A stretch of DNA of 64,000 bases from Pseudomonadota bacterium (GTDB lineage Bacteria > Pseudomonadota > Alphaproteobacteria > SHVZ01): NCBI GenBank assembly GCA_016195085.1, contig JACQAG010000022.1, positions 74,700 to 138,699 of the forward strand, read 5' to 3'. The position numbers and the translations under genes were made by a program. Each line of letters opens with the position of its first letter. Within the stretch, counting starts at the first letter, position 1. Below are positions 6,867-57,812 of the stretch, in pieces. Under the pieces are notes generated by a model. That model saw only the letters and a program-made list of their open reading frames with translations. It was not told where the DNA came from and did not search any database.

Positions 6867-6907
6867 GCGGGCCGCTCCGGAGGCATCCGGGGCGGCCCGC
6901 GCCGTTT
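6867..6907 (+). terminator. Rho-independent terminator after hsp20
   Basis: A 14-base stem, GCGGGCCGCTCCGG at 6867-6880 and CCGGGGCGGCCCGC at 6887-6900, has a single G-T wobble and a 6-base loop. GCCG and then TTTT (6904-6907) follow. It ends hsp20 transcription and sits just before the stop of the convergent ABC transporter gene. Confidence 0.8.
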
Positions 6908-8644: not shown

Positions 8645-8816
8645 TGGGCGACACTCCTGGATACGGCCAAGCGGCGGACCATCAAGCGGGATCGTGGCAT
8701 TAGCGAGGCAAGTCTAGCCTCCGCAGACGGCCGGATACAAAAGCACGCCAGACGCCGCGGATGGAGCGACGCGGGGCGGATTGCCTCCTCCGTCGCCTGC
8801 ATCCTATGGTCGCCCC

Positions 8817-16460: not shown

Positions 16461-17363
16461 CTATTCCTTGACCGCGCCGGTCAGGCTCGAGACGTAATGC
16501 TCGACGAAGAAGGAATACATGATCGCCACCGGCAGCGAGCCGAAGAGCGCGCCGGCCATCAGCGATCCCCAGTGGTAGACATCGCCCTCGACCAGCTGCG
16601 TCAGCACGCCGACCGGCACCGTCTTGTTCTCCGAGGATGAGACGAAGGTGAGCGCGTAGATGAACTCGTTCCAGGAGAGGGTGAAGGCAAAGATGAAGGC
16701 CGAGATCAGGCCCGGTATCGCCAAAGGCAGGGTGATCCGGGCCAGGATCTGAATGCGGCTGGCCCCATCGATCAACGCACACTCCTCCAGCTCATAGGGG
16801 ATGGACTTGAAGTAGCCCATCATCAGCCAGGTGCAGAACGGAATGAGGAAGGTCGGGTAGGTCAGGACGAGCGCCCAGATCGTATCGTAGAGCCCGAGCT
16901 CGACGACGATGGTGGCGAGCGGAATGAACAGGATGCTCGGCGGCACCAGATAGGCGAGGAAGATCAGGAGCCCGACCGTCTGCGCGCCGCGGAACCGAAG
17001 CCGGGTGATCGCATAGGCGGCGAGCACGCTGGCGAAGATCGACAGGAAGGTGGCCACCACCGAGACGATCATCGTGTTGATGAGCCAATCCGTGTAGTCG
17101 GTGTCGAACAGCAGCTTGTTGATGTTGGCCAGCGTCGGATGCTTGATCCAGAACGGGCTGTGCTCCGACAGATTGTAGAGCTCGTCGTTCGGCTTGAACG
17201 TGGTGACGCCCATCCAAACGAAGGGAAACAACAGCACGATCAGGAAGATCGAGAGCGGCAGGTAGACGGTGACCAGCCGGCGGGGCAAGGTCTCGAGATA
17301 GGCCATGCCGAGCGTGTCGGTGGCGCTGGGGCGAGCACCGGCGGTGACGGCGGCCTCAGTCAT
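16461..17363 (-). CDS. Sugar ABC transporter permease, MalG-like
   Basis: This is an inner-membrane subunit of a carbohydrate ABC importer (300 residues) with six predicted transmembrane segments. The EAA loop that docks on the ATPase reads YELEECALIDGASRIQILARITLP near residue 190. The last segment before the C-terminus, SFFVEHYVSSLTGAVKE, is typical of MalG-like partners. The ATG at 17363 overlaps the stop of the preceding permease gene (17356), implying translational coupling. It is the last gene of a four-gene transporter set on the minus strand. Confidence 0.92.
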   Translation of the reverse strand: MTEAAVTAGARPSATDTLGMAYLETLPRRLVTVYLPLSIFLIVLLFPFVWMGVTTFKPNDELYNLSEHSPFWIKHPTLANINKLLFDTDYTDWLINTMIVSVVATFLSIFASVLAAYAITRLRFRGAQTVGLLIFLAYLVPPSILFIPLATIVVELGLYDTIWALVLTYPTFLIPFCTWLMMGYFKSIPYELEECALIDGASRIQILARITLPLAIPGLISAFIFAFTLSWNEFIYALTFVSSSENKTVPVGVLTQLVEGDVYHWGSLMAGALFGSLPVAIMYSFFVEHYVSSLTGAVKE

Positions 17364-18303
17364 CCTTCTCTCCGTGCTGCCATTTGCGCCGCTGCAGGCC
17401 GAAATAGCTGAGCGCGGTGGCGGCAACGAGGAAGGGAATCATCGCCGTCGCGATGGCCGCACCCTCGCCGAGGCGGCCTCCGGGGATCGCGCGCTGGAAA
17501 GCGAGGGTTGCCATCAGATGCGTGGAGTTGACCGGACCGCCGCGGGTGATCGCGTAGACGAGCTGGAAGTCGGTGAAGGTGAACAAGACCGAGAAGGTCA
17601 GCACCACGGCCAAGATCGGCATCAACAGCGGCGCGGTCACGTGCCGGAAGCGCTGCCAATGCGAGGCGCCGTCAAGCGCGGCGGCCTCGTAGAGCGAGGG
17701 CGAGATGGTCTGCAGCCCGGCCAAGAGGCAGATCGCCACGAAGGGGATGCCGCGCCAGACATTGGCGACGATCAGCGAGGCCCGCGCGTGGCTCGGCACG
17801 CCGAGGAAATCAATGTACTGGGTGATCAGCCCCATCCGCTCCAGGATGTAGCTGATGATCGAGAACTGCGCGTCGTAGATCCACCAGAACGCCAGCGCCG
17901 AGAGCACCGTCGGAACGATGTAAGGAAGCAGCACGATCGCCCGGATCAGCGCCTTGAACGGCATGTTGTGGTTCAGGAGGATCGCTAGCCAGAGGCCAAG
18001 GGCGAATTTTGCGACGGTTGCGATGAGCGTGTAGAGAAAGGTGTTGAACACCGACAGCCAGAACACCCCGTCACCGGCGAGCGAGACATAGTTCTCGAAC
18101 TCGATGAAGATCCCCGGGCCGCCGATCCTGGTGTCGGTGAAGCCGAGCCAGACGCCGAGACCCAAAGGATAGGTCAAGAACATCAGCAACAGACCCGCCG
18201 CGGGCAGCATGAACAGGAACGACAGCACATTGCGATCGTCGAGCCAGCGCAGAATACGTTGGCCCGGCGCGACCGCGATGGGGTGAACCAGCGTCGCCAT
18301 CAT
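17356..18303 (-). CDS. Sugar ABC transporter permease, MalF-like
   Basis: The first permease of the carbohydrate importer has 315 residues and several transmembrane helices (LSFLFMLPAAGLLLMFLTYP near residue 28). The EAA loop is YEAAALDGASHWQRFRHVTAP near residue 213. It pairs with the overlapping MalG-like permease and the binding protein encoded 87 bases upstream. Two adjacent ATG codons (18303 and 18300) could both serve as start. No glucose- or maltose-specific feature is visible. Confidence 0.92.
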   Translation of the reverse strand: MMATLVHPIAVAPGQRILRWLDDRNVLSFLFMLPAAGLLLMFLTYPLGLGVWLGFTDTRIGGPGIFIEFENYVSLAGDGVFWLSVFNTFLYTLIATVAKFALGLWLAILLNHNMPFKALIRAIVLLPYIVPTVLSALAFWWIYDAQFSIISYILERMGLITQYIDFLGVPSHARASLIVANVWRGIPFVAICLLAGLQTISPSLYEAAALDGASHWQRFRHVTAPLLMPILAVVLTFSVLFTFTDFQLVYAITRGGPVNSTHLMATLAFQRAIPGGRLGEGAAIATAMIPFLVAATALSYFGLQRRKWQHGEKDD

Positions 18304-18390
18304 TCCTTCCTCGGCAATTCGACCGGATCGAGTATCGGGATCCGGCGCGACGTTCGCGCCGGATCGGCGTCCTTCAATCCTGCCGGCGGA

Positions 18391-19710
18391 CTAGATCTTG
18401 TAATAACGCTCCGTCCGCTTCTGCGCCTCGGCGGCGGCGTCCTTCGGCGATTTGTCGCCGCTGCACACGGACGCGAACATGTCGACCACGATGTAATCCG
18501 CGAGCGCGCTGGCCGAGGCGTAACCGAGGCTGCCGGAATAGCCGAGCCAGAGACATCGATTGATGACGTCGCGGAACGGCGTGATCTTCGGGTCCGAGGT
18601 CCAGATCTTGTTTTTCTCGTAGTACTTGAGCGGGTGACCCCAATAGCCGATCGCGGCTTCGAGGAAGGGGTCGAGCTGCTCCTTCTCCATCATGAAGCGG
18701 ATGTAGTCCTTCGCCGCATTGGGGAATTTGCAGTATTTGAACAACATCGCCGAGACCATGGTGCAGATCTCGCCGGGCTTGCCCGCCGGTCCGATCGGGT
18801 AGGGCGCGTGATCCATATCCTCGGCGATCGCCTTCAAGGCCGGATCGGTCGAGTTCTTCGCGACGTAATAGATCGAGATACCATTCAAGGTGGCGCTGAT
18901 CTGCCCGTCGAGGAACGCCTTGTTGTTGCTGGGGTCGAGCCAGGACAAGGTGCCGGGAATCATCAGCGGGTAGAGCTGCTTGGCATATTCCAGGGCGGCG
19001 ATTGTCTCCGGCGCGTTGATGACGACGTTGTCCTTGTCATCGACGAGCTTGCCGCCGTACCCCCAGAGCATCCAATGCACGAAGGTATTGCCGTCGCCCA
19101 CCGCGTGGCCGAGGGCGAAGCCGACCGGCTTGGTCTTCTCCTTGGCCGCCTGGGCGAATTTGAGGAAGCCCGGGAAATCCAGCGGCATGGTGTCGAACCC
19201 GGCGGCCTTCACCATGGATTTGCGATAGTTCAACTTGCCGCCGGCGGCGCCGAGCGGTACCTGGATCCAGTTGTTGCCGCGCTTGCCGTATTTCTGCGCG
19301 AGCGGATACCATCCGTCGTATTTCGCCCCGAGATAGTTGGCGACGTCGTTCTGAACGACCAGCTTGTCCGGGAACTGATGGGCGAGATCGTGCCAGCCAT
19401 AGACGACATCCGCGCCCTTGCCGACATTGGCCGAGACCGCGGTCTTCGGCACTAGATCTTCCCAACCCTCGAAGTCGATCTTTACCTCGATGCCGGTCTG
19501 CTGCTGGAACTTCTTGGTGTTCTCGATGAACTGCGTCTCATCGCCCTGGACGAACTTCGAGGGCCGCATGACGCGGAGCTTGGCGCCCTTCTCGGGGACG
19601 ACTTTCCACTCGGTCGCCTGCGCCTCGGCTCGGCCGGGCAAGCCCAGCGCGCCGCCGGCAGCGGCGCCGGCACCGATCTTGAATACGTCGCGTCTCGAAA
19701 AGTCGCTCAT
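18391..19710 (-). CDS. Extracellular sugar-binding protein, family 1, with Tat signal
   Basis: The 439-residue protein begins MSDFSRRDVFKIGAGAAAGG, a twin-arginine signal, so it is exported folded to the periplasm. The mature protein is a family 1 solute-binding protein (VYGWHDLAHQFPDKLVV, WLDPSNNKAFLDGQISATLN, and FPNAAKDYIRFMMEKEQLDPF). It captures the ligand for the permeases encoded downstream. It sits 37 bases after the ATPase gene. The ligand is probably a sugar, sugar acid or polyol; the neighbouring dehydratase and dehydrogenase suggest a sugar acid. Confidence 0.92.
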   Translation of the reverse strand: MSDFSRRDVFKIGAGAAAGGALGLPGRAEAQATEWKVVPEKGAKLRVMRPSKFVQGDETQFIENTKKFQQQTGIEVKIDFEGWEDLVPKTAVSANVGKGADVVYGWHDLAHQFPDKLVVQNDVANYLGAKYDGWYPLAQKYGKRGNNWIQVPLGAAGGKLNYRKSMVKAAGFDTMPLDFPGFLKFAQAAKEKTKPVGFALGHAVGDGNTFVHWMLWGYGGKLVDDKDNVVINAPETIAALEYAKQLYPLMIPGTLSWLDPSNNKAFLDGQISATLNGISIYYVAKNSTDPALKAIAEDMDHAPYPIGPAGKPGEICTMVSAMLFKYCKFPNAAKDYIRFMMEKEQLDPFLEAAIGYWGHPLKYYEKNKIWTSDPKITPFRDVINRCLWLGYSGSLGYASASALADYIVVDMFASVCSGDKSPKDAAAEAQKRTERYYKI

Positions 19711-19747
19711 CGTGTAAATCCTCCCAAAGTTCGTTGCGGCACGGGGC

Positions 19748-20818
19748 CTATAGATGCTTGCCCGTGCTTAGGTCGAAAAGATGCACGCTGTCGAGCCGCG
19801 GCTGCAGGCGGATCGCCTGGCGCGGCTTGAACTCATGGCGCTCGGCGAAGACGGCGCAGACCGTCGCCCCGGCGATGGTCGAGAAGACGAGGGTGTCGGC
19901 GCCCGTCGGCTCCACCACCTCGACCTCGGCATCGACGCCGCCGCCATTGCTGGCGAGGCTCAAATGCTCCGGCCTGACGCCGTAGGTGACCTTATGGCCG
20001 TCGCCGGCCTCGACGCTAGCGGGCGCCGGCAGCTTGGTCCCGTCCGCCGTCTCCACCCAGATGCTGTTCCCCTGCCGGTGAAGCGTGCCGGTGAAGAAGT
20101 TCATCGCCGGCGAGCCGATGAACCCGGCAACGAAGATGTTGGCGGGATGGTCATAGAGCTGGAGCGGGCTGCCGATCTGCTCGACGATGCCGTCATGCAT
20201 GACAACGATGCGGTCGGCCATGGTCATGGCCTCGACCTGATCGTGGGTGACGTAGACCGAGGTGGTCTTCAGTCGCTGATGCAGTGCCTTGATTTCGGTG
20301 CGCATCTGCACGCGCAGCTTGGCATCGAGATTGGACAAGGGCTCGTCGAACAGGAAAACCTGCGGATCGCGCACGATCGCGCGTCCCATCGCCACGCGCT
20401 GGCGCTGGCCGCCGGAGAGCTGGCGCGGATAGCGGTCCAGGAACGGCGTCAGCCCAAGGATGTCGGCCGCCTCGCGCACGCGCTTGTCGATCAGCGACTT
20501 CTCGGCCTTTCTCAGCTTCAGGCTGAAGGCCATGTTGTCGTAGACCGACATATGCGGATAGAGCGCGTAGTTCTGGAACACCATGGCGATGTCGCGGTCC
20601 TTCGGAGGAACGTCGTTCACCACGCGCCCGCCGATGTGGATTTCGCCCTCGGTGATCTGCTCGAGGCCGGCAATCATCCTAAGCAGGGTCGACTTGCCGC
20701 AACCCGATGGACCGACCAGCACGACGAACTCGCTGTCGCCGATGTCGATGTCGACGCCATGAATGACTTTCGTCTGGCCAAACGCCTTATGGACGCCGCG
20801 AATGTCTACGGTAGCCAT
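19748..20818 (-). CDS. ABC transporter ATPase, UgpC/MsmK type
   Basis: The 356-residue energy subunit of the carbohydrate importer has Walker [10 protein letters not shown] near residue 36, Q-loop [11 protein letters not shown] near 80, signature LSGGQRQR near 134, Walker [17 protein letters not shown] near 154 and the switch histidine in VTHDQ. A C-terminal TOBE regulatory domain follows, with GVRPEHLSL. It is the first transporter gene of the minus-strand set. ATPases of this type often serve several importers, which matters because the importer at 53882-57035 has none of its own. Confidence 0.93.
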
Positions 20819-45912: not shown

Positions 45913-46851
45913 TCAGCTAAGCGCCGTCTTCAGCATCCTCAGAAACGCCTTGGTGTCGGCGCGGCGAATGACGCGCGCGTTCGGCATCTTCTCCGGCCAG
46001 CGCGTTCCAAGCCGGGGCGGGTGAATCGAGGAGAAGCCGCGGGTGAGCTCGCCTTGCACTTCGACGTCGACGACGCAGTCGTCGCTCTCCAGGATCAGGC
46101 GTTCATCGATGGCGCAGGCGCAGGTCAGGGAATCCGGATGGGTGCTGATCGGCTTGCCGTAACGGGCGAGCGCCTGCGCCCGGGGCTCACGTGTGACGGT
46201 CATGAAGAACTTGGACAGGGGCGTGTCCAGCGCTTCGATCTCGGCGATCTCCTCGGCATCGAAGGCACCCGACCTCAAAGTCAGTGTCCAGGTGGAGATC
46301 GTCATCTTGAAGCCGGCATTGAGCACAATCTTGGCGGCCTCCGGATCGACGTAGAAATTGAATTCGGCCGTCGGCGTGACGTTGCCGATGGCACTGTCGG
46401 TGCCCCCCATGATCCAGAGGTGACGGACCGCGCCTGCGATGCGCGGCTCCATCACCACGGCGGCCGCGATGTTGGTGAGCGGGGCTTGGGCGAGGATGCT
46501 GACCTCGCCCGGTCGCGCCATCACCCGGTCGATGATCGCGGCCACCGCATGCGTCGTCTCCGCCCGCTGCGCTGCTTTGGGAAAATTGGCATCGCTCATG
46601 CCGTCTTTGCCGTGAAAGAGCGCCGGCACCCATTTGCGCAGCATGGGGCGCGGACAACCGGGGTAGACCGGGACCGTGCCGCCGCGCCCGGCCTTCTCGA
46701 TGGCGATGAGCGCGTTGTCGATCTGCTGCTGGAAGTCGACATTGCCGTTGCAGATGGTGACGGCCTCGAGCGTGACGCCGGGGTGCTTGAGGGCCAGCAG
46801 CAGCGAGAAGGTGTCGTCGCCGGCGGTGTCGGTGTCGATGATGAGACGCAT
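45913..46851 (-). CDS. Inosine/uridine-preferring nucleoside hydrolase family protein
   Basis: Members cleave the N-glycosidic bond of ribonucleosides, using a bound calcium. The 312-residue protein has the signature LIIDTDTAGDDTFSLLLAL at the N-terminus, AQAPLTNIAAAV near residue 123, IMGGTDSAIGNVTPTAEFNF near 148 with the following YVDPEAA, and a C-terminal THPDSLTCACAID. Metal and ribose-binding Asp, Asn and Glu residues are in place. It is the last gene of the GntR-linked operon, 33 bases after the cupin gene. The base released and sugar acted on are unknown. Confidence 0.9.
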   Translation of the reverse strand: MRLIIDTDTAGDDTFSLLLALKHPGVTLEAVTICNGNVDFQQQIDNALIAIEKAGRGGTVPVYPGCPRPMLRKWVPALFHGKDGMSDANFPKAAQRAETTHAVAAIIDRVMARPGEVSILAQAPLTNIAAAVVMEPRIAGAVRHLWIMGGTDSAIGNVTPTAEFNFYVDPEAAKIVLNAGFKMTISTWTLTLRSGAFDAEEIAEIEALDTPLSKFFMTVTREPRAQALARYGKPISTHPDSLTCACAIDERLILESDDCVVDVEVQGELTRGFSSIHPPRLGTRWPEKMPNARVIRRADTKAFLRMLKTALS

Positions 46852-46884
46852 GCGAGCGCTCCAGATGCTGCGGAGAAGGCGTCG

Positions 46885-47832
46885 CTACTCCAGGAAGCTG
46901 AATCCCATGGTGCGGGCATGGTAGTAGAGGCCGCCATCCTGCACGATGAGGAAGAGCGCGCGCCCGTCGCCAGCATTGTGATGGGAGTGGGGCAGGCCCG
47001 GCGGCGTCACCATCGTCGCCCCCTCCAGCCACTCGCAGCGTTCCGCTCCGACCATGGAATGGCAGCGCTTGCCCTTGACGATGAGGGTGGTGGCCGCCGA
47101 GTTGTGCCGGTGCGCGCGCTGATGCGTTGCCGCGGGCAGCGAGTTCAACGACAAGGTCAGCGTCGGCATGATGTTGCGGCTGGCTTCTTGCCGGTCGGAG
47201 GAGAAAATAACGGCGATGCCGGAGGTCGCCTCGTTCGCTGATGCTTCGTAGATGAGGTCGATCTGACGGGCGATCTCGGCCGCCGGGTAGTGCACTGGTT
47301 CGATCGGCGCGTTTCTGCCCGTCGTCGGCCGCAGCCGATCGAAGGCCAGCTGCGGCTCGTTGCTGACGGTCCACAGCACGGCATGCTCGGACCCGGCGGT
47401 ATGATCGCCCGGCTGCCCGCCCGGCAGCAGGAACACGTCGCCGACGCTCCAGCTGATCGCTTCCTGGCCGCTACGGCTCATGCCGTTTCCGGCGATCACG
47501 TACCAGATCGAGCCTGTGGCGATCGATTCCGAGCGCAAGGTCTTGCCCGCGGGAATACCGGCGTAGCGCGCCAGCATGAGGGGCGTGGTGGCCGGGAACG
47601 GACAGTCGAGCTCTGCCGATTGATCGCAGGCGAAGAAGCGCGCCTTCCTGCCGGGGGCGGAGGCTGCCTCGAATTCCGCATGGAAACTGCGGGCCGGCAC
47701 CGGGGTGAGCTTTACGTTGAAGGCATTGCCCGAATTGAAGAAGCGCGCGCGCCCCGCCGCCGGGCTCTCCGGTGCGAGCGGCTTTTGCGCCGACATATCC
47801 GCCATGTCCGGCTTTTCGGCTTGCGTCGTCAT
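46885..47832 (-). CDS. Two-domain cupin protein, gentisate dioxygenase-like
   Basis: The 315-residue protein has two cupin barrels. The first contains GSIWYVIAGNGMSRSG and VGDVFLLPGG without a full histidine set; the second has HQRAHRHNSAATTLIVKGKR near residue 216 and TPPGLPHSHHNAG near 278, which could hold iron. Related proteins open aromatic rings or modify small acids, but ring cleavage is only one option here. The ATG at 47832 is preceded by GAGAGG, 3 bases away. It sits 22 bases after the M20 hydrolase gene. Confidence 0.82.
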   Translation of the reverse strand: MTTQAEKPDMADMSAQKPLAPESPAAGRARFFNSGNAFNVKLTPVPARSFHAEFEAASAPGRKARFFACDQSAELDCPFPATTPLMLARYAGIPAGKTLRSESIATGSIWYVIAGNGMSRSGQEAISWSVGDVFLLPGGQPGDHTAGSEHAVLWTVSNEPQLAFDRLRPTTGRNAPIEPVHYPAAEIARQIDLIYEASANEATSGIAVIFSSDRQEASRNIMPTLTLSLNSLPAATHQRAHRHNSAATTLIVKGKRCHSMVGAERCEWLEGATMVTPPGLPHSHHNAGDGRALFLIVQDGGLYYHARTMGFSFLE

Positions 47833-47854
47833 AGTCCTCTCGTTTTCACGTGGG

Positions 47855-49129
47855 TCATTGCCACAGCAGCTCCGCGAGGCTGGCGGCGAGCACGGCGGCG
47901 CCGGCGCCGACATGCTCGCATTCGGCCCACTCGGCCTCGGCATGGCTGATGCCGCTGCGGCAGGGGATGAAGATCATCGCGCTCGGGCAGAGCGTCGCCA
48001 AATGCCGGGCGTCGTGACCTGCGGCCGAGAAGAGACGCATGCTGGGATAGCCGCAAGCCGCGGCAACCCGCTCGATGCGCGCCTGCAGCGCCGGGTCGAA
48101 ATCGTTCGAAGGGGCATCCACCAACGGCGTCACCGTCACTGCGCACGGGGCGGCCTCACGCCGGCAAACCGTGCCGAAGCGCTCGCCCAGCGCCGTGAGG
48201 ACGCCGTCGTCGGGATGGCGCAGGTCGGCGCTGAACGTCACCCGCGCCGGAACCACCGAAGGCGCGTTCGGCTCGACGCGGAGGCGTCCGATGGTGAACT
48301 TGACCAAGCCGTCGTGGTCGCCGAGCTCGACCGCGAGCGCGCCTGCCATACGCGCGAAGACGGCGACCGCGTCTCGGCGCTCGCCCATGGGCATCGTGCC
48401 GGCATGGCCCTCGCAACCCTCGATCACCGTCTCGAAGGTCTTCTTGCCTTGGATGCCGGTGACGATGCCGATGAGCCGGTTCTCGGCTTCGAGGATCGGT
48501 CCTTGCTCGATATGGGCCTCGAGATAGGCGAAGGCGGGAAAGCCGAGGGGCCGGCGCGGCAAGCCGGGGAAGGCGGCATGCAGCGCATCGAGCGCCCCGC
48601 CGGCGCTGACCCCTTCGGCGTCGACCGCGGCCCTGATCCGGTCCAGCGAGCGCAGGCCGGCGAACGCCTCGGAGCCCATCATGCCTGACGCAAAGCGCGA
48701 GCCTTCTTCATTCATCCAAGCGACGACGATGAGGTCGCGCATGGGGCGCCGTCCCTGCTCGGCGAGGGCAGTGGCCGTCTCCAGCGCCGCCAGCACGCCA
48801 TAGACGCCGTCGAAGCGGCCGCCGGTCGGCTGCGTGTCGAGATGGCTGCCGGCCAGCACCGGCGCCGCCGCGCGATCGGCGCCTGGGAGCGCCAGGAACA
48901 GGTTGCCGGCGGCGTCGGTCGAGGGCTCGAGCCCTGCTTGCCCGGCCCAGCCGATCACCATCCGCCACGCCTCGATCTCGGGCGCGCTCAGAGCCGGGCG
49001 ATTCACGCCGCCCTTGGCCGTGGCACCGATCTTTGCAAGCGCCATCAGCCGGCTCCACAGCCGCGCCGTGTCGGTCTTCACGCGCCGGAGATCCGATGCC
49101 GGCTCACCCTTCGCACTCTTCGCCTTCAT
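47855..49129 (-). CDS. M20-family Zn hydrolase, N-carbamoyl-amino acid/allantoate amidohydrolase-like
   Basis: Relatives remove carbamoyl or similar groups from N-carbamoyl amino acids, ureidoglycolate or allantoate, releasing ammonia. The 424-residue protein has the two-metal site motifs GSHLDTQPTGGRFDGVYG near residue 93, MNEEGSRF near 139 and AHIEQGPILE near 210, the dimer-domain segment EGHAGTMPM near 243, and the C-terminal SAAGHDARHL and PCRSGISHAEAEW. It lies 7 bases after the alpha/beta hydrolase gene in the same operon. Confidence 0.9.
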   Translation of the reverse strand: MKAKSAKGEPASDLRRVKTDTARLWSRLMALAKIGATAKGGVNRPALSAPEIEAWRMVIGWAGQAGLEPSTDAAGNLFLALPGADRAAAPVLAGSHLDTQPTGGRFDGVYGVLAALETATALAEQGRRPMRDLIVVAWMNEEGSRFASGMMGSEAFAGLRSLDRIRAAVDAEGVSAGGALDALHAAFPGLPRRPLGFPAFAYLEAHIEQGPILEAENRLIGIVTGIQGKKTFETVIEGCEGHAGTMPMGERRDAVAVFARMAGALAVELGDHDGLVKFTIGRLRVEPNAPSVVPARVTFSADLRHPDDGVLTALGERFGTVCRREAAPCAVTVTPLVDAPSNDFDPALQARIERVAAACGYPSMRLFSAAGHDARHLATLCPSAMIFIPCRSGISHAEAEWAECEHVGAGAAVLAASLAELLWQ

Positions 49130-49136
49130 CGGGCCA

Positions 49137-50015
49137 TCACTTGGTTCGCATGATCTCGCCGGCGATCGCGCGCGCGTCGCGCACCGTCCATCGGCCGGCC
49201 TCGACTTGGGCCAGGAACTCCGCCAGCAGGCCGTTGAACAGAGCCGGCTCCTCCAGATTGAGCGTATGGCCCGTCTTCGGCAGTACCGCGAGCCCGCACG
49301 CCGGGATCGTCTTCTTCAAGAAAATGCCGGGCTGCAGGCAGTGATCGTCCTCGTCGCCGACCACAACCAGGGTCGGCACCGGCATCTGCTTCAGCTCCGC
49401 CTCGAGGTCGTAGAAGGAAGGCCGGCGCGCCTGCACGCCGCGCATGGTCAAGGCGGCGCCGACATCGGAGTGGGTGGCGAGCCGGTCGGCGAATTCCTGC
49501 CAGCCGCGCGGGTCCTTGTTCTGGAACTGCACGCGGCTGGCGCCGAGCGCGTAGACCTTGGCGAACGCCTTGGCGCCCAACCGCTCGAAATTGTCGGCCA
49601 CCTCGAGGGAGACCTTGCGGAAATACTCCTCATACGGCTTCTCGCAGCCGTAGCCGGCGCCGGCCACGGTCAGCGACAAGGCGCGCGTGGCATGGCCGAG
49701 GCCGAAATGCACCGTGGCGAAGCCGCCCATGGATAGGCCGACGATGTGTGCCTTGGCGATGCCGAGGCCGTCCAAAACGGCGACCGCATCGCTGACCGCC
49801 TTTGCTTGCGAGTAGGCCTCGAGGTTGGCCGGCACGTCCGAGGGCGGATAGCCCCGCGCCGCGTAGGTGATGCAGCGGTAGCGGTGGCCGAAGAAGCGCA
49901 GCTGCGGTTCCCAGCTCGCGTGGTTGCCGCCGAACTCGTGGATGAACAGGATCGCCGTGCCGGTGCCGGCCTCCTCGACGTGGAGACGGATGCCATCGGC
50001 GGCGGTGATGTTCAT
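49137..50015 (-). CDS. Alpha/beta hydrolase
   Basis: The 292-residue protein has the oxyanion segment FIHEFGGNHASW near residue 25, nucleophile elbow VGLSMGGFA near 93, an acid residue in VVGDEDDHC near 222 and the catalytic histidine in KTGHTLNLEEP near 250. The fold is shared by esterases, lactonases and C-C hydrolases, so the substrate is open. The ATG at 50015 is preceded by GAGGAGCTGCACCC. It is 17 bases after the aminotransferase gene. Confidence 0.9.
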   Translation of the reverse strand: MNITAADGIRLHVEEAGTGTAILFIHEFGGNHASWEPQLRFFGHRYRCITYAARGYPPSDVPANLEAYSQAKAVSDAVAVLDGLGIAKAHIVGLSMGGFATVHFGLGHATRALSLTVAGAGYGCEKPYEEYFRKVSLEVADNFERLGAKAFAKVYALGASRVQFQNKDPRGWQEFADRLATHSDVGAALTMRGVQARRPSFYDLEAELKQMPVPTLVVVGDEDDHCLQPGIFLKKTIPACGLAVLPKTGHTLNLEEPALFNGLLAEFLAQVEAGRWTVRDARAIAGEIMRTK

Positions 50016-50032
50016 GGGTGCAGCTCCTCGCC

Positions 50033-51163
50033 TCAGAATTGCGGCGGCAACTCGTTCAGGCTGCGCGCCTTGACGATCATATCCGGCAATAGCGCGCAGA
50101 AGCGATCCGCCCACGCCCGCGGCACCGAGGTGCTGACCTTGACGAACCGGTCGCCGAAGCGCTCCGTGTGATAACCGCCGTGCCGGATCATGATGCCCTC
50201 GCGGCGATAGCATTCGACCAGCGCTTCTGGGCGAATGTTGGCGCCTACGGTCTCCAGGACGAGGAAGTTGCCGTGCGAGGGGTAGACGGGGAGCGACAGG
50301 CCGGCGATCCCGGCGGCCTTCTTGATCGCTAGCTTGTTGTCACGGTCGATTCTGCGCACGGTCCGCATCCACTCGGACTTGACCGCGAGGCCGGCGGCAG
50401 CCGCCCGTTGGGCGACGACGCTGGCGCCGAGCACGCCGGTGGTCCATTTTGAAATCTTGTCGAGGAGGGGCGGGGCGGCGACGAGCGCACCCACCCGAAG
50501 GCCGGCGAGGCCAAGCCATTTGGAGAAGCTGACAGTGACGACCGTGCCTTCCGGGGCCACGTGGAGGGCCGGCACGTGGCCATCGGCGAAATCCCGATAG
50601 GTGCAGTCATGCACCAGGAGGGCGCCGCTCGTCTTGGCGATCTCGGCAAAACTCTCGATCTCCGCTCGCGTGTGGCAGCTGCCAAGCGGATTGTTGGGAT
50701 CGACGAGATAGATGATCGCTGTCCGCACGTCCACATGGCGGCGCAAGAGGTCGGGCGTCAACCGATAGCCGATCGAGGCGTCATAGATCGGTATTTCAAT
50801 CACCTCCGCACCCTGCTGGCGGGCAAAGAGGCAAGGCCACTTCCAGGTTGGGTCGGTGGTGACGAGGGTGGTGCCGGGTCGGCAAAAAGCCCGGCAGATC
50901 ATTGCCAGCGCGTTGACCCCGCCCTCCGTCACCAATGCCTCCGCCTCCGGCGCGCCGAGATCGGCGGCAATCGCCAGGCGCAGCGCCTCGAAGCCCATGG
51001 GCGGCGCGTAGGCATTGTATTCGCCGGACTCAATCGAGCGGAGCATCGCTTCGCGGACGGCCGGATGCGCCGGAATGTGGTTGGTGTTCTGGCCTAGCCA
51101 GCAGAGGCCGGGCGTGGCGAAGAGATCGTCGAAATAGCGGTTGCGGGTGCGGGCGTCCGACAT
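50033..51163 (-). CDS. PLP-dependent aminotransferase, class I/II (HisC-like)
   Basis: The 376-residue enzyme has the fold type I motifs YNAYAPPMGFEALRLAIA near residue 49, DPNNPLGSC near 153, the PLP-binding aspartate in LLVHDCTYRDF, and the Schiff-base lysine in SFSKWLGLAGLRVG near residue 214. It resembles histidinol-phosphate-type aminotransferases but is not in a histidine operon, so an amino acid or amine of the local pathway is likelier. It lies 29 bases after the SDR gene. Confidence 0.9.
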   Translation of the reverse strand: MSDARTRNRYFDDLFATPGLCWLGQNTNHIPAHPAVREAMLRSIESGEYNAYAPPMGFEALRLAIAADLGAPEAEALVTEGGVNALAMICRAFCRPGTTLVTTDPTWKWPCLFARQQGAEVIEIPIYDASIGYRLTPDLLRRHVDVRTAIIYLVDPNNPLGSCHTRAEIESFAEIAKTSGALLVHDCTYRDFADGHVPALHVAPEGTVVTVSFSKWLGLAGLRVGALVAAPPLLDKISKWTTGVLGASVVAQRAAAAGLAVKSEWMRTVRRIDRDNKLAIKKAAGIAGLSLPVYPSHGNFLVLETVGANIRPEALVECYRREGIMIRHGGYHTERFGDRFVKVSTSVPRAWADRFCALLPDMIVKARSLNELPPQF

Positions 51164-51192
51164 CGATCGCGTCCAGTGCCGTCACTTCGCCC

Positions 51193-51972
51193 TTAGATCA
51201 CCGATCCGCGGGCGGAGATACCCCCGTCGATGGTGACAACGGAGCCGGTGATGTAGCCGGCCTTGGGCGAGGCGAGGAACGCCAGCAGATCGGCCACCTC
51301 CTCCGAAGTCGCGGGCCGGCCGCCGGGATATTTCTGGAACAGCTCCTCCCAACGTTCCTCGTCGCCCAGCATGTCGATTGCCTTGCGCCGCATGATCTTC
51401 AGCATGCGGTCGGTGGCCACCGGGCCCGGGTTGACGCCGACGACGCGCACACCGTGGTTGAGGCTGGCGCCGCCGAGCGCCTTGGTGAACGCCATCAGCG
51501 CGGCATTCCCGGTGCTGCCGGCGATGTAGCCTGCATCCCAGTTCTCGCCGGAATTGCCGATGACATTGATGATGACGCCGTCGCGGCCGCGCATGCGGCC
51601 ATAGAGCGCGCGGGTCAGCGTGATGTAGCCGAACACCTTGAGGTCGAATCCGCGCCGCCAGGCCGCATCGTCGACCTTGTCGAGGGAGCCGACCGGAATA
51701 TCCCCGGCATTATTGATGAGAACGTCCACCTCGCCGACCTCGGCGGCGAGGCGCTCCATGGCTTGCGTGCTCGAGAGGTCGAGGGGGTAGACGCCGACTT
51801 TGACGCCGTGGGCGGTCTTGATCTCGTTTGCGGCGGCGCGGAGAGCAACGCCGTTTCGGGCGGCGAGATGCAGGTTGCAACCTTCTTCAGCGAAAGTGCG
51901 CGCGGTGGCGAGGCCAATTCCTTTCGAGGCGCCGGTGATGACGACGCTCTTGCCGGTGAGATTGAGCTGCAA
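51193..51972 (-). CDS. SDR-family oxidoreductase lacking the catalytic lysine
   Basis: The 259-residue protein has the cofactor motif TGASKGIG near residue 13, NNAGD near 88 and a C-terminal ITGSVVTIDGGISARG. In the active-site region it reads NSGENWDAGYIAGSTGNAAL: the tyrosine is present, but serine stands where YxxxK has lysine. Catalysis may therefore differ from classical SDRs. The start is a TTG at 51972 with AGGAG 6 bases upstream. It is the first gene of the six-enzyme operon, driven by the promoter at 52001-52030. Confidence 0.88.
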   Translation of the reverse strand: MQLNLTGKSVVITGASKGIGLATARTFAEEGCNLHLAARNGVALRAAANEIKTAHGVKVGVYPLDLSSTQAMERLAAEVGEVDVLINNAGDIPVGSLDKVDDAAWRRGFDLKVFGYITLTRALYGRMRGRDGVIINVIGNSGENWDAGYIAGSTGNAALMAFTKALGGASLNHGVRVVGVNPGPVATDRMLKIMRRKAIDMLGDEERWEELFQKYPGGRPATSEEVADLLAFLASPKAGYITGSVVTIDGGISARGSVI

Positions 51973-52000
51973 CGGAGGCTCCTAGAGAGGTGAAGTCGAA

Positions 52001-52030
52001 ATTATACATAGAGTCACTTTTTGTATACAA
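52001..52030 (-). promoter_or_regulatory. Promoter of the six-enzyme operon, overlapped by operator 1
   Basis: On the minus strand, TTGTAT (52030-52025) is followed 18 bases later by a perfect TATAAT (52006-52001). The -35 box is one half of the palindrome TTGTATACAA at 52021-52030. A bound repressor would therefore block the polymerase. Transcription would start near 51994, just before the SDR gene. Confidence 0.7.
52021..52030. promoter_or_regulatory. GntR-family operator 1, TTGTATACAA
   Basis: This perfect 10-base palindrome lies between gntR and the SDR gene. Its form matches the TNGTATACNA-like sites used by FCD-type GntR regulators. A close variant lies on the other side of gntR at 52761. 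Confidence 0.65.
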
Positions 52031-52046
52031 CATTTTCATCCATGTC

Positions 52047-52742
52047 TCAGTCGAAGGCGGCGATGAAGTCCGAGACGTCGTCGCCGAGGAGCGTGAGATG
52101 GTCGCGCATGGCCTGATGGGCGCGCTCGCAGTCATGGGCGAAGATCGCGTTCATCACCTCCTCATGCTCGCAGATGGTGTCGGCGATGCGCCCAGGCATA
52201 TAGGTAACGCGGCGACGGTAGGCGCCGATGCGGTTGCGCAACGCCCGGGTCTGTTCGGCCACGTATTCGTTCCTCGATGCCTCGTAGATCGCCTCGTGGA
52301 ACGCCACGTTCACGTCGTAGAATCGATCGGGATCGTCGGTTTCGGCGGATTCCTGCAGTTTCCGATGGATTTCTTCGATTTTGGCCCGCTGCTCGCTGGT
52401 GAGACGGCGCGCGGCTAGACGCGCGCAAAGGCCTTCGAGCTCGGCCATGACTTGGAACATTTCGATCAGCCTATTGACGCCGATCGAGCGGACGATCACC
52501 CCCTGTCGCCCGCGCAGCTCTACGAGCCCACTCGCCGCAAGCAGCCTGAACGCCTCGCGCACCGGCGTGCGCGAGACACCGCAGCGCGATGCGATCTCCT
52601 GCTCGTCGAGACGCGCGCCCGGCGCCAGCTTGCCGTCGACGATCTCGCGCTCGAGACGCCGATGCAGGTCATCGGCCAGGGTCTTGCCTGCCTGTTCTTT
52701 AGGCAGAGCCGGTGCCATGGAGGGTTTTTTCAAGGCATTCAT
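52047..52742 (-). CDS. GntR-family transcriptional regulator with FCD domain
   Basis: The 231-residue protein has an N-terminal winged helix (LDEQEIASRCGVSRTPVREA near residue 45, then RGRQGVIVRS) and a C-terminal FCD ligand domain. The FCD metal ligands are visible: FHEAIYEASR near residue 147, then EHEEVMNAIF and RDHLTLLG. It is therefore likely to bind an acid or similar metabolite through a metal ion. TTGTATAC-like sites on both flanks suggest that it controls itself, the six-enzyme operon and the aldolase-importer operon. Confidence 0.92.
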   Translation of the reverse strand: MNALKKPSMAPALPKEQAGKTLADDLHRRLEREIVDGKLAPGARLDEQEIASRCGVSRTPVREAFRLLAASGLVELRGRQGVIVRSIGVNRLIEMFQVMAELEGLCARLAARRLTSEQRAKIEEIHRKLQESAETDDPDRFYDVNVAFHEAIYEASRNEYVAEQTRALRNRIGAYRRRVTYMPGRIADTICEHEEVMNAIFAHDCERAHQAMRDHLTLLGDDVSDFIAAFD

Positions 52743-52760
52743 AATACATCATCTCGATTA

Positions 52761-52771
52761 TTGTATAACAA
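52761..52771. promoter_or_regulatory. GntR-family operator 2, TTGTATAACAA
   Basis: This is an 11-base near-palindrome differing from operator 1 by one extra A. It lies between gntR and the divergent aldolase-importer operon and overlaps the -35 box of the latter. Confidence 0.6.
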
Positions 52772-52789
52772 AGGCGAGGCATGTACCAT
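52761..52789 (+). promoter_or_regulatory. Promoter of the aldolase-importer operon
   Basis: TTGTAT (52761-52766), then 17 bases, then TACCAT (52784-52789). The -35 box is the first half of operator 2, the same arrangement as at the other promoter. The transcript would carry a leader of about 180 bases before the aldolase start; I see no clear structure in it. Confidence 0.55.
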
Positions 52790-52978
52790 AGTCGTGTGCA
52801 CGGGGAGCCCACGGAAACCATGAGCTCCCGTGCATCCCAGTGCCAGCCGGGGCGGCAGATGCACCCGGCGCGGCATGCGGGTTGCGTTGCTCGCGTCGTC
52901 GGGGACGATGGATTTTCCGAGGTACCGGATGGATCGGCGGCAGCTGTGTTTCGTCGGAATGGCCGAAAGCGCCATGAA

Positions 52979-53764
52979 ATGACCGCGGCTCATCTGCGGG
53001 CGCGCCGGCCTCAGACCATCGATCCGGCCGAGTGGGAAGCGCGCGTCGCACTCGCGGCCTGCTATCGCCTGGTGGCCAAGCTCGGCATGGACGATCTCAT
53101 CTACAATCACATCTCTGCCCGGGTCCCCGGCCGTGACGCGCAATTCCTGATCAACCCCTATGGTTTGTTGTTCGAGGAGATCACCGCCTCGAGCCTGGTC
53201 AGGATCGACACCAAGGGCTGCAAGCTCGACGATTCCCCCCATGATGTGAATGTCGCCGCCTTCGTCATCCATGGCGCCGTTCATGCCGGCAGGGCGGATG
53301 CCGGCTGCGTCCTCCATACCCATTCCGACGCCAGCGTCGCCGTTTCAGCGCAACCCGACGGGCTCCTGCCGCTCAGCCAGTTCGCCATGCGCTTCTATCG
53401 CCGCCAGGCCTTCCACGACTATGAGGGGGTGGCGATCGATCTCGATGAGCAGCAACGGCTGGTCAGCGATCTCGGCTCCCACAAGGTGATGTTGATGCGC
53501 AATCACGGCATCCTCACCGTCGGCCGCACGCCGGGCGAAGCCTTCATGCTTCTCTACTACTTCGAACGCGCCGCCGGCATCCAGCTGGCGATGCAGGCGG
53601 CCGCCGCTTCCGGCGTCCCGCCGATCCAGCCTTCGCATGGAGTTTGCGAGCGAGCGGCCCGGCAATTCTGGGAAAACCAGGGCGACATCCGCGTGCCCGG
53701 CGAGCGGGAATGGCCGGCGTTGCTGCGTCAGCTCGATCGTCTCGATGCCTCGTACCGGAGCTGA
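52979..53764 (+). CDS. Class II aldolase/adducin family protein
   Basis: Members cleave or epimerise phosphorylated or free sugars using zinc. The 261-residue protein has the phosphate/substrate loop IYNHISARVPGRD near residue 41, zinc ligands in VLHTHSDASVA near 105 and RNHGILTVGRTPGEAF near 177. The frame is open from 52781, but the upstream part overlaps the promoter, so the ATG at 52979 is used despite a weak ribosome site. It is the first gene of the plus-strand arm of the GntR cluster, followed by the importer. Confidence 0.85.
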   Translation: MTAAHLRARRPQTIDPAEWEARVALAACYRLVAKLGMDDLIYNHISARVPGRDAQFLINPYGLLFEEITASSLVRIDTKGCKLDDSPHDVNVAAFVIHGAVHAGRADAGCVLHTHSDASVAVSAQPDGLLPLSQFAMRFYRRQAFHDYEGVAIDLDEQQRLVSDLGSHKVMLMRNHGILTVGRTPGEAFMLLYYFERAAGIQLAMQAAAASGVPPIQPSHGVCERAARQFWENQGDIRVPGEREWPALLRQLDRLDASYRS

Positions 53765-53881
53765 TCGGTGCCGCAAGCCTCCCTGCCGCCCCATACCGAG
53801 GGGAACCCGTTCCCTCTACCGGCGAGAGCCCTCGCGGCGAATCCAGCGCAACACCGAAGTGTGGAAGGAGATGATCGAGAG

Positions 53882-55189
53882 ATGAAGATCCAGACGATGC
53901 TACTCGCCCTGTCGCTCACATCGGCGCTGACGTTTCCGGCCGCCGTTGCTGAGGCGCAAGATGCCACCTCGTGCAAGACCGGCATCGTGCAGCTGACCGG
54001 TCTGCGCTCCCAGGGCAACGCACCCTATGCGAATGTCATCGAGGCTTGGCAGAAGGCAAATCCCTGCGCCAAGGTGGAATTCACCGAGGTGCCCTTCAGC
54101 CAGCTCGCGGACAAGATCAGCGTGCTCGCCGCATCCGACAATCCTCCGGACGTGCTGGTCTATGACGGACCGAACACGCAGTCCTATGCCGCCGCCGGCA
54201 TCCTGCTCGCCCTCGACCCGTATCTGCCTGCCGGATTCAAGGACGACGTGCTGCCCGCGACCCTGGCGGAGCACTCCTATCAGGGCAAGGTCTACTCCCC
54301 CGGCATGGAGCAGACCACCATCGGTCTCTACTACAACAAGACGCTGACCGACGCGGCCGGGATCACGCCGCCGCCGACGCTGGCGACCGCGTGGACCTGG
54401 AGCCAGGCGATCGAGGCCTTCAAGAAATGCCAGCAGGGACCGGCGGACAATCCCACGGTATGGGGCCTGGGGCCGACGCGGTTCGGCAATGGCCAGCCCG
54501 GGATCGTCTACCGCGACCTCCTGTTCCAGCGCAGCGCCGGCGATCCGAAGGCGGATCCAAAGAGCTCACTCTACAAGACCTACTGGGCGCAATCCCCGGA
54601 CGCAAAGGAGGTCGACGGCTGGCTCAACACGCCGGAGGCGATTGCCGCCCTCAAGATCTACAGCGACATCTTCAACGTCTACAAGGTCGCGCCCAAGACG
54701 GGCATTCCCAACGCCTTCATCGACGGCAAGGCCTGTTTCTATATCGACACACCCGCCGTCGGCAACGCGCTCTTGAAGGATCCGAAGATTCAATGGGGGA
54801 TCACGCCGTTTCCCTATTTCAAGACGCCGATCGTGCATACCGGCAGCACCACCCTCGGTGCCACCCAGAAGAGCAAGCATCCCGAGGTCGCCGCCAAGTT
54901 CGTCGTCGATATGAGCTCGGGCGAGTACCTGACCGAGATCCTGCGGCAGCGCGGCAATCTGCCGACCCTGCGCTCGCTCAATGCCAAGTTCCCGGTGTTC
55001 GAGCAGTATCCCATGAAGCTGTTCCGCGACCAGCTCGAGCAGTGGGGCCAACCGCGGCCGCCATCGCCGAAATTCGCCGAGTATGACAAGCTGGTGAGCG
55101 ATGCGCTGAAGGACATCGCCCTCGGCTCCGATCCCAAGGAGCGCATGGATGCGGCGGTCCGGCGCCTCGGCCCGATCCTCAGGCGCTGA
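53882..55189 (+). CDS. Extracellular sugar-binding protein, family 1
   Basis: The 435-residue protein has a Sec signal peptide (LLALSLTSALTFPAAVAEAQ). The mature part is a family 1 solute-binding protein: YANVIEAWQKANPCAKVEFT near residue 48, LVYDGPNTQSYAAAGILLAL, YQGKVYSPGMEQTTIGLYYN and GSTTLGATQKSKHPEVAAKF. It delivers a carbohydrate-like ligand to the permeases encoded right after it. The ATG at 53882 follows GAAGGAGATGATCGAG, with GAAGGAG as ribosome site. Confidence 0.92.
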   Translation: MKIQTMLLALSLTSALTFPAAVAEAQDATSCKTGIVQLTGLRSQGNAPYANVIEAWQKANPCAKVEFTEVPFSQLADKISVLAASDNPPDVLVYDGPNTQSYAAAGILLALDPYLPAGFKDDVLPATLAEHSYQGKVYSPGMEQTTIGLYYNKTLTDAAGITPPPTLATAWTWSQAIEAFKKCQQGPADNPTVWGLGPTRFGNGQPGIVYRDLLFQRSAGDPKADPKSSLYKTYWAQSPDAKEVDGWLNTPEAIAALKIYSDIFNVYKVAPKTGIPNAFIDGKACFYIDTPAVGNALLKDPKIQWGITPFPYFKTPIVHTGSTTLGATQKSKHPEVAAKFVVDMSSGEYLTEILRQRGNLPTLRSLNAKFPVFEQYPMKLFRDQLEQWGQPRPPSPKFAEYDKLVSDALKDIALGSDPKERMDAAVRRLGPILRR

Positions 55190-55204
55190 GGCGCTTGCGG
55201 CCGG

Positions 55205-56158
55205 ATGCGGACGGTGGATGTAGCGCCGGAGACACGGCGCGACCGGCATCAGCGTGGCTCGATCCTGCCCTGGCGCCAGCCCGGGCAGGGCGCCCGCAAC
55301 GTCATGGCCGCGAGCCTGTTCCTGGCGCCTTTTCTCATCCTCCTGCTGCTATTCCAGTATGTGCCGCTGGCGCTGATGACGAGGAACAGCCTCTACAGCT
55401 ATTCGCTGCTGAATCCGGCCGCTTCGAGCTTTGTCGGAATGCAGAACTACCTCGATATTATTAGCGACCCGGACGCCCGAGGCTCGTTCCTCACCACGCT
55501 CCTGTTCGCCGCCGGCGTGGTTGCGACCGTGGTGCCCGCCGGTCTCTCCTTGGCGCTGATCCTCGACACCGAGCTCCCGGCGCGGGCGTTGATCCGCACC
55601 ATCATCCTCGTGCCGGTGGTGAGTTCCGCCGTCGTGGTGGCGACGATTTGGACCTTCCTCCTCGATCCCGCGAACGGGCTCATCAACGGCTTGTTGGCGT
55701 GGATCCGGCTCGGTCCCTATGGCTTTCTCACCGACAGATCCCTGGCGCTGCCGGCCTTGGTCGTCATGACGCTCTGGCAGCAGGTGGGCTTCGCGGCGAT
55801 CTTGTTCCTGGCCGGCCTGCAGGCGATTCCAGTGGAGCTGGGCGAGGCGGCGTTGGTCGACGGGGCGACGAAGCCGCAAAGGTTCTGGCACGTGACCCTT
55901 CCGCTGCTGGCGCGCACCACGCTTTTCGTCGTGGTGATCATGACGGTGTTCTCGCTGCAGGCCTTCGCTCCGGCTCTGATCATGACCTCCGGCGGTCCGC
56001 AAGCCAGCACCAACTTCATCGTCTACGAAATCTACCAGCTGGCATTCGCGCTGCACGACGCAGGCTATGCCTCGGCGTTGTCGGTCGTGCTGCTGCTGGC
56101 CGTGCTGCTCGTCAGTATTGTGCAGATGGGCATCTTGCGGGTGCGCTGGAACTATTGA
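55205..56158 (+). CDS. Sugar ABC transporter permease, MalF-like
   Basis: The 317-residue inner-membrane protein has about six transmembrane segments (ASLFLAPFLILLLLFQYVPL near residue 36). The EAA loop is LGEAALVDGATKPQRFWHVT near residue 218. It starts 15 bases after the binding-protein gene and is followed by the partner permease 10 bases later. The first 30 residues are hydrophilic and cytoplasmic. Confidence 0.92.
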   Translation: MRTVDVAPETRRDRHQRGSILPWRQPGQGARNVMAASLFLAPFLILLLLFQYVPLALMTRNSLYSYSLLNPAASSFVGMQNYLDIISDPDARGSFLTTLLFAAGVVATVVPAGLSLALILDTELPARALIRTIILVPVVSSAVVVATIWTFLLDPANGLINGLLAWIRLGPYGFLTDRSLALPALVVMTLWQQVGFAAILFLAGLQAIPVELGEAALVDGATKPQRFWHVTLPLLARTTLFVVVIMTVFSLQAFAPALIMTSGGPQASTNFIVYEIYQLAFALHDAGYASALSVVLLLAVLLVSIVQMGILRVRWNY

Positions 56159-56168
56159 GCTGGGCAGA

Positions 56169-57035
56169 ATGATCTCGACCCGCCTCGAAGAGACGCTTCG
56201 TCATGGCATCGGCTGGGTGATCTCCGGCCTCATCGTACTGGCCATCGGAGGGGTGTTTCTGCTGCCCTATCTCTGGGTGGCCGCGTCATCCTTCAAATCG
56301 CAGTTCGACATCTTCAGCGACATTTCACCGCTGCAGTGGAGCGCCTTCCTGCCGACCAAGCCGACGACGGCCAACTACTTCAGCCTCATGCAGCGCCGCC
56401 CCATCCTCGGGGCGCTCCTGAATTCGGCCGCGGTTTCCCTCTGCCAAGTGGTGCTCACCCTGATGCTCTGCTCGATGGCGGCCTACGCACTGACCCGTAT
56501 CGGCTTCCGCGGCGCCAATGTCGTGTTCGTGCTGATCCTCGTTACCTTCCTCTTGCCGATCGAAGCCTTGATGGTGCCGCTCTATCAGGTCGTGTCCGGC
56601 TTCGGCCTGCAGGACACGCTGGTCGGCGTTCTCATCCCCTGGATCGCCAGTCCGTTCGGGCTCTTTCAGCTGCGCCAGGCCTTCGAGGAGCTGCCGAAGG
56701 AGCTCGAGGACGCGGCCCGGATCGACGGCGCCGGCCATGTTCGGATCTTTCTCAGCATCATCCTGCCGAATGTGAAGGCGCCGCTCGCCACCTTGGCGCT
56801 GGTGACCTTCCTGTTTTCCTGGAACAGCTTCCTGTGGCCCCTGGTGATCGTCCAGTCGCCGAAGCGCCAGCTCATTCAGGTGGCGATCGCCCAGTCGGTC
56901 TCGCCCGGAGAGTTTCCGAACTGGGGCGAGACCTTCGCCGGCGCCACTCTAGCGACCGTGCCGCTGCTCCTGCTGTTCCTCTTCCTGCAGAAGTATTTCG
57001 TGCGCGGCATGGTCATGAGCGGCATCAAGGGCTGA
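56169..57035 (+). CDS. Sugar ABC transporter permease, MalG-like
   Basis: The 288-residue partner permease has the EAA loop KELEDAARIDGAGHVRIFLS near residue 178 and ends in KYFVRGMVMSGIKG, typical of MalG-like proteins. No ATPase gene follows; the next gene is convergent. The importer must borrow an ATPase, and the UgpC-type gene at 19748-20818 is the only suitable one in the window. Confidence 0.92.
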   Translation: MISTRLEETLRHGIGWVISGLIVLAIGGVFLLPYLWVAASSFKSQFDIFSDISPLQWSAFLPTKPTTANYFSLMQRRPILGALLNSAAVSLCQVVLTLMLCSMAAYALTRIGFRGANVVFVLILVTFLLPIEALMVPLYQVVSGFGLQDTLVGVLIPWIASPFGLFQLRQAFEELPKELEDAARIDGAGHVRIFLSIILPNVKAPLATLALVTFLFSWNSFLWPLVIVQSPKRQLIQVAIAQSVSPGEFPNWGETFAGATLATVPLLLLFLFLQKYFVRGMVMSGIKG

Positions 57036-57050: not shown

Positions 57051-57812
57051 CTAAAACGCAATCTCCGCCGGTGCCTGCGGCACGCTCGCCCAGAATTCGG
57101 CGTCGTGGCCGAAGAAAATGCGGGCGCCGCCGGCCTCGAGTGCTGCCAGCTTGTCCAAGGAGCGCATCATCTCGGCGTGGTCGTGGGCGCGGGGCGGCAG
57201 CCTGCGCTCGCGCAAGGTGCGGCAGAAATAGCAGGCGTCCGCCGCCAGCACGACCTCGCCCTTCTCCAGCCTGACCTTGAGCGATTGATGGCCCGGCGTG
57301 TGGCCATAGGTCGGCAGGCAGACGACCCGCCCGTCGCCGAAGAGGTCGTGCTCGCCGTCGATCTTCATGAGCTTGTGGCCGAGATCGAAGTCCCGCCGGT
57401 TGAAGCCGCGCTGGGCGGCGATGTCAGGGTCCATGCCGGCTTCCCATTCGCGCTTCTGCACCACCACCGTCGCGTTGGGGATGAGCGCGTTGCCGCCGAC
57501 ATGGTCGAAATGCAGATGCGAATTGACGATGAAATCGATCTTCGCCGGATCTTGCCCGATCGATTTGAGGCGGCCGCTCACTTCGTCGCCCGGCTGGTAG
57601 TCGAACTTGAAGAGCTGGCCGATGCGGGGGCCGGCGCGGCCCGCCGGATCGTGCTGGCAATCGGGGTGCATGCCGGTGTCGAACAGCACTGTGCCCTTCT
57701 CGTGCCGGATCAGATAGGCGGGGATCGGCAGCTCGACCTCGCCCTCGCCGTCCTGCATGAGGTCGCCGAGCTTGCCCGTGAGCCGTCCCAAAGTGAATGC
57801 CGAGAGCTTCAT
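57051..57812 (-). CDS. Metallo-beta-lactamase-fold hydrolase, N-acyl homoserine lactonase-like
   Basis: The 253-residue protein has the dinuclear zinc motif NSHLHFDHVGG near residue 97, YGHTPGHQS near 169, the bridging aspartate in LAADACYF and the last histidine in IFFGHDAEFW. It belongs to the AiiA-like branch, which opens lactone rings, though many members act on other esters or lactones. It might hydrolyse a sugar lactone made by the cluster, or degrade quorum signals; the sequence cannot decide. It is convergent with the importer operon. Confidence 0.88.
   Translation of the reverse strand: MKLSAFTLGRLTGKLGDLMQDGEGEVELPIPAYLIRHEKGTVLFDTGMHPDCQHDPAGRAGPRIGQLFKFDYQPGDEVSGRLKSIGQDPAKIDFIVNSHLHFDHVGGNALIPNATVVVQKREWEAGMDPDIAAQRGFNRRDFDLGHKLMKIDGEHDLFGDGRVVCLPTYGHTPGHQSLKVRLEKGEVVLAADACYFCRTLRERRLPPRAHDHAEMMRSLDKLAALEAGGARIFFGHDAEFWASVPQAPAEIAF

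Follow-up and report, generated by a model that had tools for sequence, protein, structure and literature searches.

What compound is degraded by the enzymes encoded on either side of a GntR regulator gene in the 64,000-nucleotide stretch of alphaproteobacterial DNA analysed here (the whole of which is called the window)? The regulator, of the FCD type, lies between a minus-strand arm that encodes a short-chain dehydrogenase (SDR), an aminotransferase, an alpha/beta hydrolase, an M20 amidohydrolase, a cupin and a nucleoside hydrolase, and a plus-strand arm that encodes a class II aldolase homologue together with the solute-binding protein (SBP) and two permeases of a sugar-type ATP-binding cassette (ABC) importer. 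Our analysis points tentatively, with somewhat less than an even chance, to a GntR-controlled pathway in which a nucleoside-like N-glycoside would be imported, its base released and the base dismantled. The arrangement had been described in an earlier reading of the sequence (the original prediction), and open reading frames and Pfam matches agree with it in families, positions and gap lengths (Table 1). The regulator gene is directly upstream of the minus arm, and the plus arm diverges from it. The minus-arm intergenic gaps are 33, 22, 7, 17 and 29 bases, and because they span only 7-33 bases the six genes look like a single transcription unit.

To follow the cluster in other bacteria, the aminotransferase was used as the marker. 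A scan of about 85,000 genomes, one per species, gave 354 relatives, and the counts reported here refer to the best 80 loci of these, in which genes were called by simple scripts and similarity rather than by full annotation. All four core enzymes (SDR, aminotransferase, alpha/beta hydrolase and M20 enzyme) were found within 10 kb in 78 of the 80 loci, from about 20 genera. The GntR gene was present in 75 of the 78 loci with a complete core, and the core was joined by the aldolase homologue in 73/80. The loci span Hyphomicrobiales, Acetobacterales, Rhodobacterales and two Pseudomonas. About 40% of them are from Bradyrhizobium, so that the counts are not independent events, yet gene order is still kept across families. 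The same cluster, including the cupin, nucleoside hydrolase, binding protein, permeases and aldolase homologue, was found among plasmid records in Neorhizobium galegae, and no relatives were found among viral contigs. The cluster is common to dozens of soil and plant-associated bacteria, and the co-occurrence check proposed with the original prediction shows that its genes travel together.

Two further elements are conserved in the relatives, and were missed by the original prediction because the window lacks both. These are a flavin monooxygenase of the NtaA/DmoA family (TIGR03860, 529 bits against a cut-off of 280) and an NMT1/THI5-type binding protein, which in most cases comes with an ATPase and permeases of its own; each of the two elements is present in 76 of the 80 loci. 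The relatives of this binding protein in the PDB include the pyrimidine-binding protein 3ix1. A flavin-reductase-like gene, named by eye from its sequence, lies downstream in 25 loci.

The loci differ in what accompanies the core. Type A, in Bradyrhizobium, Methylobacterium, Xanthobacter, Roseomonadaceae and Pseudomonas, has the NMT1 importer, nearly always the monooxygenase, and no nucleoside hydrolase. Type B, in Neorhizobium, Rhizobium and their relatives, additionally has a nucleoside hydrolase and the sugar-type importer. In type C (loci L126, L127 and L129) the nucleoside hydrolase immediately precedes the SDR, and the monooxygenase is missing from the region covered. The window combines features of two types: in quick trees its aminotransferase and GntR regulator fall with type A (SH-aLRT support of 91 and, for the GntR split, 98), and its importer and nucleoside hydrolase are as in type B. 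Across the 80 loci the nucleoside hydrolase and the sugar-type importer are closely associated, with both present in 17, the hydrolase alone in three, the importer alone in none and neither in 60. One locus with the hydrolase and without this importer, L126, carries upstream (positions 1-9200) an energy-coupling factor (ECF) importer with an S component that resembles the CD3073 family at a score below the family cut-off. The position of this S component before the nucleoside hydrolase and core hints at nucleoside-like substrates for the unassigned CD3073-like transporter family.

A distant version of the cluster (51% in the aminotransferase) occurs among related plasmids, in Rhizobium sp. CB3060, where the core leads within 10-20 bases into a uridine phosphorylase-like gene (217 bits, under the cut-off of 280) and deoC; deoA, phosphopentomutase and a BMP-type importer are close by. 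RutA-type ring opening was considered for this version and rejected, as its luciferase-like monooxygenase (LLM) enzyme has no RutA match.

In terms of regulation, the palindromic pattern [TA][TA]GTAT(N)AC[AT][AT] was chosen after sight of two sites in the window. The window holds these two matches against 0.06 expected from a first-order shuffle, a count that alone is no test because the pattern was picked from these sites; the other loci serve as the test. In 1.885 Mb of loci there were 25 matches, and 25 of the 25 fall in gaps that hold the promoters of cluster genes; in 23 cases the gap is the one separating the GntR gene from a divergent ATPase gene. Most of the 25, however, come from Bradyrhizobium and Methylobacterium and are hence related. 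At the sequence level, the GntR/FCD regulator has predicted local palindromic operators.

The enzymes themselves indicate what kind of chemistry may be involved. The nucleoside hydrolase falls within the inosine-uridine nucleoside hydrolase (IU-NH) family, carrying the N-terminal DxDxxxDD calcium/ribose motif as DTDTAGDD. Its active-site residues, this motif included, are invariant in 24 cluster members, and its HPDSLT motif is shared with two S. solfataricus nucleosidases, its nearest relatives in the structural database. The M20 enzyme scores well above the TIGR01879 cut-off of the hydantoinase/carbamoylase family, and is nearest the subfamily containing the M20 enzyme of the same genome's pyrimidine locus. 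Its residues H96, D107, E141/E142, H206, H396 and R304 are invariant, and with them the metal ligands and the Asn and Arg residues that in the M20 family hold the substrate carboxylate. Since these are kept, the expected product is an amino or beta-amino acid, which fits the aminotransferase, in which Lys215 and Arg327 are invariant.

The cupin keeps the His-x-His ... His metal motif in its second domain, and it scores far below the gentisate and 5-aminosalicylate dioxygenase models (59 bits vs 650 and 45 vs 442, respectively). Orphan relatives of about 30-54% identity (loci L029-L047) occur in other members of the Alphaproteobacteria that do not have the remaining cluster genes; since these include relatives of 51-54% identity, the cupin is not diagnostic and was rejected as a cluster marker. 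In the organism's own family and order (seven genomes) only weak local matches to it were found beyond the window's genome.

From these sequences we infer the order of steps, the substrate and the role of each enzyme as follows. The SBP/permease importer, with an ATPase borrowed from elsewhere, would take up a nucleoside-like N-glycoside, which the nucleoside hydrolase would cleave into sugar and base. For the base, a modified pyrimidine or a similar ureide-containing ring is the likeliest candidate; the alpha/beta hydrolase, perhaps helped by the cupin, would open it to an N-carbamoyl amino acid. Its carbamoyl group would then be taken off by the M20 enzyme, the aminotransferase would deaminate the amino or beta-amino acid so formed, and the SDR would reduce or oxidise the carbonyl product. 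The aldolase homologue would act not on the sugar but on an intermediate derived from the base, which it might for instance decarboxylate. In most relatives a preceding oxidation of the base is probably the task of the flavin monooxygenase. A standard reductive pyrimidine locus is present elsewhere in the window's genome, on a separate contig, C38, with PreA (708 bits vs 335), a PreT-like partner, dihydropyrimidinase (584 vs 393), an M20 enzyme, an NMT1-type importer and a RutR-like regulator. The cluster in the window would thus be a second pathway, and its substrate probably a modified base, which is the simplest guess.

Several observations weigh against this reading. None of the enzymes has a close homologue that has been characterised, the cluster includes no ATPase gene for its importer, and the ring-opening step has no assigned enzyme in the window. 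The monooxygenase, which bears on that step, gave no match in the window's draft genome (95.9% complete), neither by protein nor by the TIGR03860 model; as controls for this model, three other genomes match strongly, with the copies on the same contig as their aminotransferase. An ortholog of the NMT1-type importer is likewise absent from the window's genome, where the best protein is 36% identical and comes from another locus. An ordinary pyrimidine would be an odd substrate because the C38 locus is already present, and because most relatives are without the nucleoside hydrolase, the substrate of the core need not come from a nucleoside. A distant relative (L146, 4873-11424) has, beside the M20 enzyme, SDR and aminotransferase, a Rieske oxygenase, a tripartite ATP-independent periplasmic (TRAP) importer, and PuuE-like and RutB/biuret-hydrolase-like hydrolases.

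The strongest alternative is that the cluster degrades a non-nucleoside N-heterocycle or ureide, and that some lineages acquired the hydrolase and sugar-type importer as a way of obtaining this compound from its glycoside. The 60 hydrolase-free loci, which keep nearly everything else, the NMT1-type importer and monooxygenase in 76 loci each, and the oxygenase and hydrolases of L146 all favour it. In contrast, the distant CB3060 version sits independently in a nucleoside-phosphorylase/deoC operon, and the type C hydrolase is directly upstream of the SDR. We consider this alternative unlikely, while giving it serious weight.

It is improbable that the copy in the window is a remnant, horizontally acquired, that has lost the monooxygenase and ATPases and may have ceased to function as a complete unit. 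The genome-wide lack of the monooxygenase and the importer without an ATPase are consistent with such a loss, and the aminotransferase was not found in four other genomes of the organism's family. However, all the cluster frames are intact with conserved active-site residues, the operators are kept, and type C variants likewise do without the monooxygenase.

A ureide/purine route, with the M20 enzyme as an allantoate-type amidohydrolase and the cupin as a ureidoglycine or ureidoglycolate enzyme, is very doubtful. The top-scoring M20 models do carry the name allantoate amidohydrolase, and bicupins exist in that route, but the cupin matches none of those models, only gentisate/5-aminosalicylate dioxygenase, and no xanthine- or urate-oxidising genes were seen among the identified conserved neighbours.

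That the class II aldolase aldol-cleaves the sugar freed by the nucleoside hydrolase, as the original prediction had it, is hardly credible: the domain is real by Pfam and its gene shares a strand with the importer, but in 58 of the 80 loci the homologue occurs without a nucleoside hydrolase, the catalytic Glu is missing, and no sugar kinase is present in the window cluster to form a sugar phosphate. In an alignment with the E. coli FucA sequence, the three metal His are kept, but where FucA has its catalytic Glu73 the window protein has Ala94, and the 78 relatives have either Ala (76) or Gly (2); a FucA-like class II sugar-phosphate aldolase would have both the three His and Glu73. Decarboxylases with the class II aldolase fold are known, such as PDB 2z7b from the vitamin B6 route, and NovR is deposited as a decarboxylase. 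Of the original interpretation, a co-regulated catabolic cluster with import, N-glycosidic cleavage and removal of carbamoyl or amide nitrogen is supported, and only the cleavage of the sugar falls away.

Comparison with known systems gives partial likenesses. The Rut pathway (RutA-G) resembles the cluster in its flavin monooxygenase and flavin reductase (in the relatives), alpha/beta hydrolase, dehydrogenase and amide hydrolysis. It differs in that the relatives' monooxygenase is of the NtaA/DmoA type and not RutA (66 bits vs a cut-off of 498), and in the M20 enzyme, aminotransferase, aldolase homologue and cupin of the cluster; neither a RutA-type monooxygenase nor RutB, RutC or RutG was found in the window cluster. 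Reductive pyrimidine catabolism (PreT/PreA, dihydropyrimidinase, beta-ureidopropionase) shares M20 decarbamoylation followed by transamination and, in relatives, the NMT1-type importer, but neither dihydropyrimidine dehydrogenase nor dihydropyrimidinase is in the cluster, both being on C38 with an M20 enzyme of their own. Vitamin B6 degradation in Mesorhizobium loti uses an SDR, a class II aldolase-fold decarboxylase and an alpha/beta hydrolase on an N-heterocycle, as in the cluster, and is without an M20 carbamoylase and nucleoside hydrolase; the sequence similarity is remote. Riboflavin/lumichrome catabolism has monooxygenase entry, amidases, a cupin as hydratase and a pyrimidine-containing ring, but differs in its P450 and thiamin-dependent decarboxylation and in its gene set (PMC12746152). 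The original statement that no described pathway has this exact set agrees with our search, in which no published pathway with a matching gene set was found in the open-access literature.

Near the importer genes, a metallo-beta-lactamase (MBL)-fold lactonase-like gene (57051-57812) is convergent with them; it lies outside the conserved cluster and was left out of the gene set (AttM-like, 168 bits vs a cut-off of 390; 4-pyridoxolactonase-like, 96 vs 325). A second ABC importer at 16461-20818 of the window includes a UgpC-like ATPase (54% to UgpC in the Neorhizobium cluster) that could serve the cluster importer.

Table 1. Genes and predicted operator sites of the cluster, in window coordinates.
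Feature	Coordinates	Strand	Evidence
Nucleoside hydrolase (IU_nuc_hydro)	45913..46851	-	Pfam PF01156 259 bits; best PDB matches 3t8i/3t8j
Two-cupin protein, weakly gentisate-dioxygenase-like	46885..47832	-	Family-model scans and motif conservation
M20 N-carbamoyl amino acid amidohydrolase (hydantoinase/carbamoylase family)	47855..49129	-	TIGR01879 349.9 bits vs cut-off 204
Alpha/beta hydrolase, RutD/PcaD/MhpC-like	49137..50015	-	Family-model scans
Class I/II pyridoxal phosphate (PLP) aminotransferase, PRK06225 family	50033..51163	-	NF004870 522 bits vs cut-off 351
SDR, PRK06125 family, TTG start	51193..51972	-	NF004779 401 bits vs cut-off 261
Predicted GntR operator TTGTATACAA	52021..52030	.	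In front of SDR operon
FCD-type GntR regulator	52047..52742	-	PF07729 and PF00392
Predicted GntR operator TTGTATAACAA	52761..52771	.	Gap between GntR and aldolase homologue
Class II aldolase/adducin-domain protein, PRK07044 family	52979..53764	+	Pfam and family-model scans; FucA alignment
SBP_bac_1 solute-binding protein of importer	53882..55189	+	Pfam; orthologs in 17/17 loci of SBP variant
ABC permease 1	55205..56158	+	Pfam; orthologs in relatives
ABC permease 2	56169..57035	+	Orthologs in relatives

In summary, soil and plant-associated Alphaproteobacteria may possess, beside ordinary pyrimidine catabolism, an undescribed route for degrading a modified nucleoside, for instance from RNA/DNA turnover or plant material, via an N-carbamoyl amino acid and transamination; we advance this wider proposal as a possibility in which our confidence is limited. 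Conserved and widespread in Bradyrhizobium, Rhizobium, Methylobacterium and other bacteria, the catabolic cluster offers a concrete target, and its natural versions, with the monooxygenase, with the nucleoside hydrolase or with both, allow the steps to be separated. Once solved, the pathway would provide annotation for hundreds of genomes and a function for the unnamed families PRK06225, PRK06125 and PRK07044 and the cluster cupin, and it would bear on the fate of modified nucleosides after RNA or DNA breakdown.

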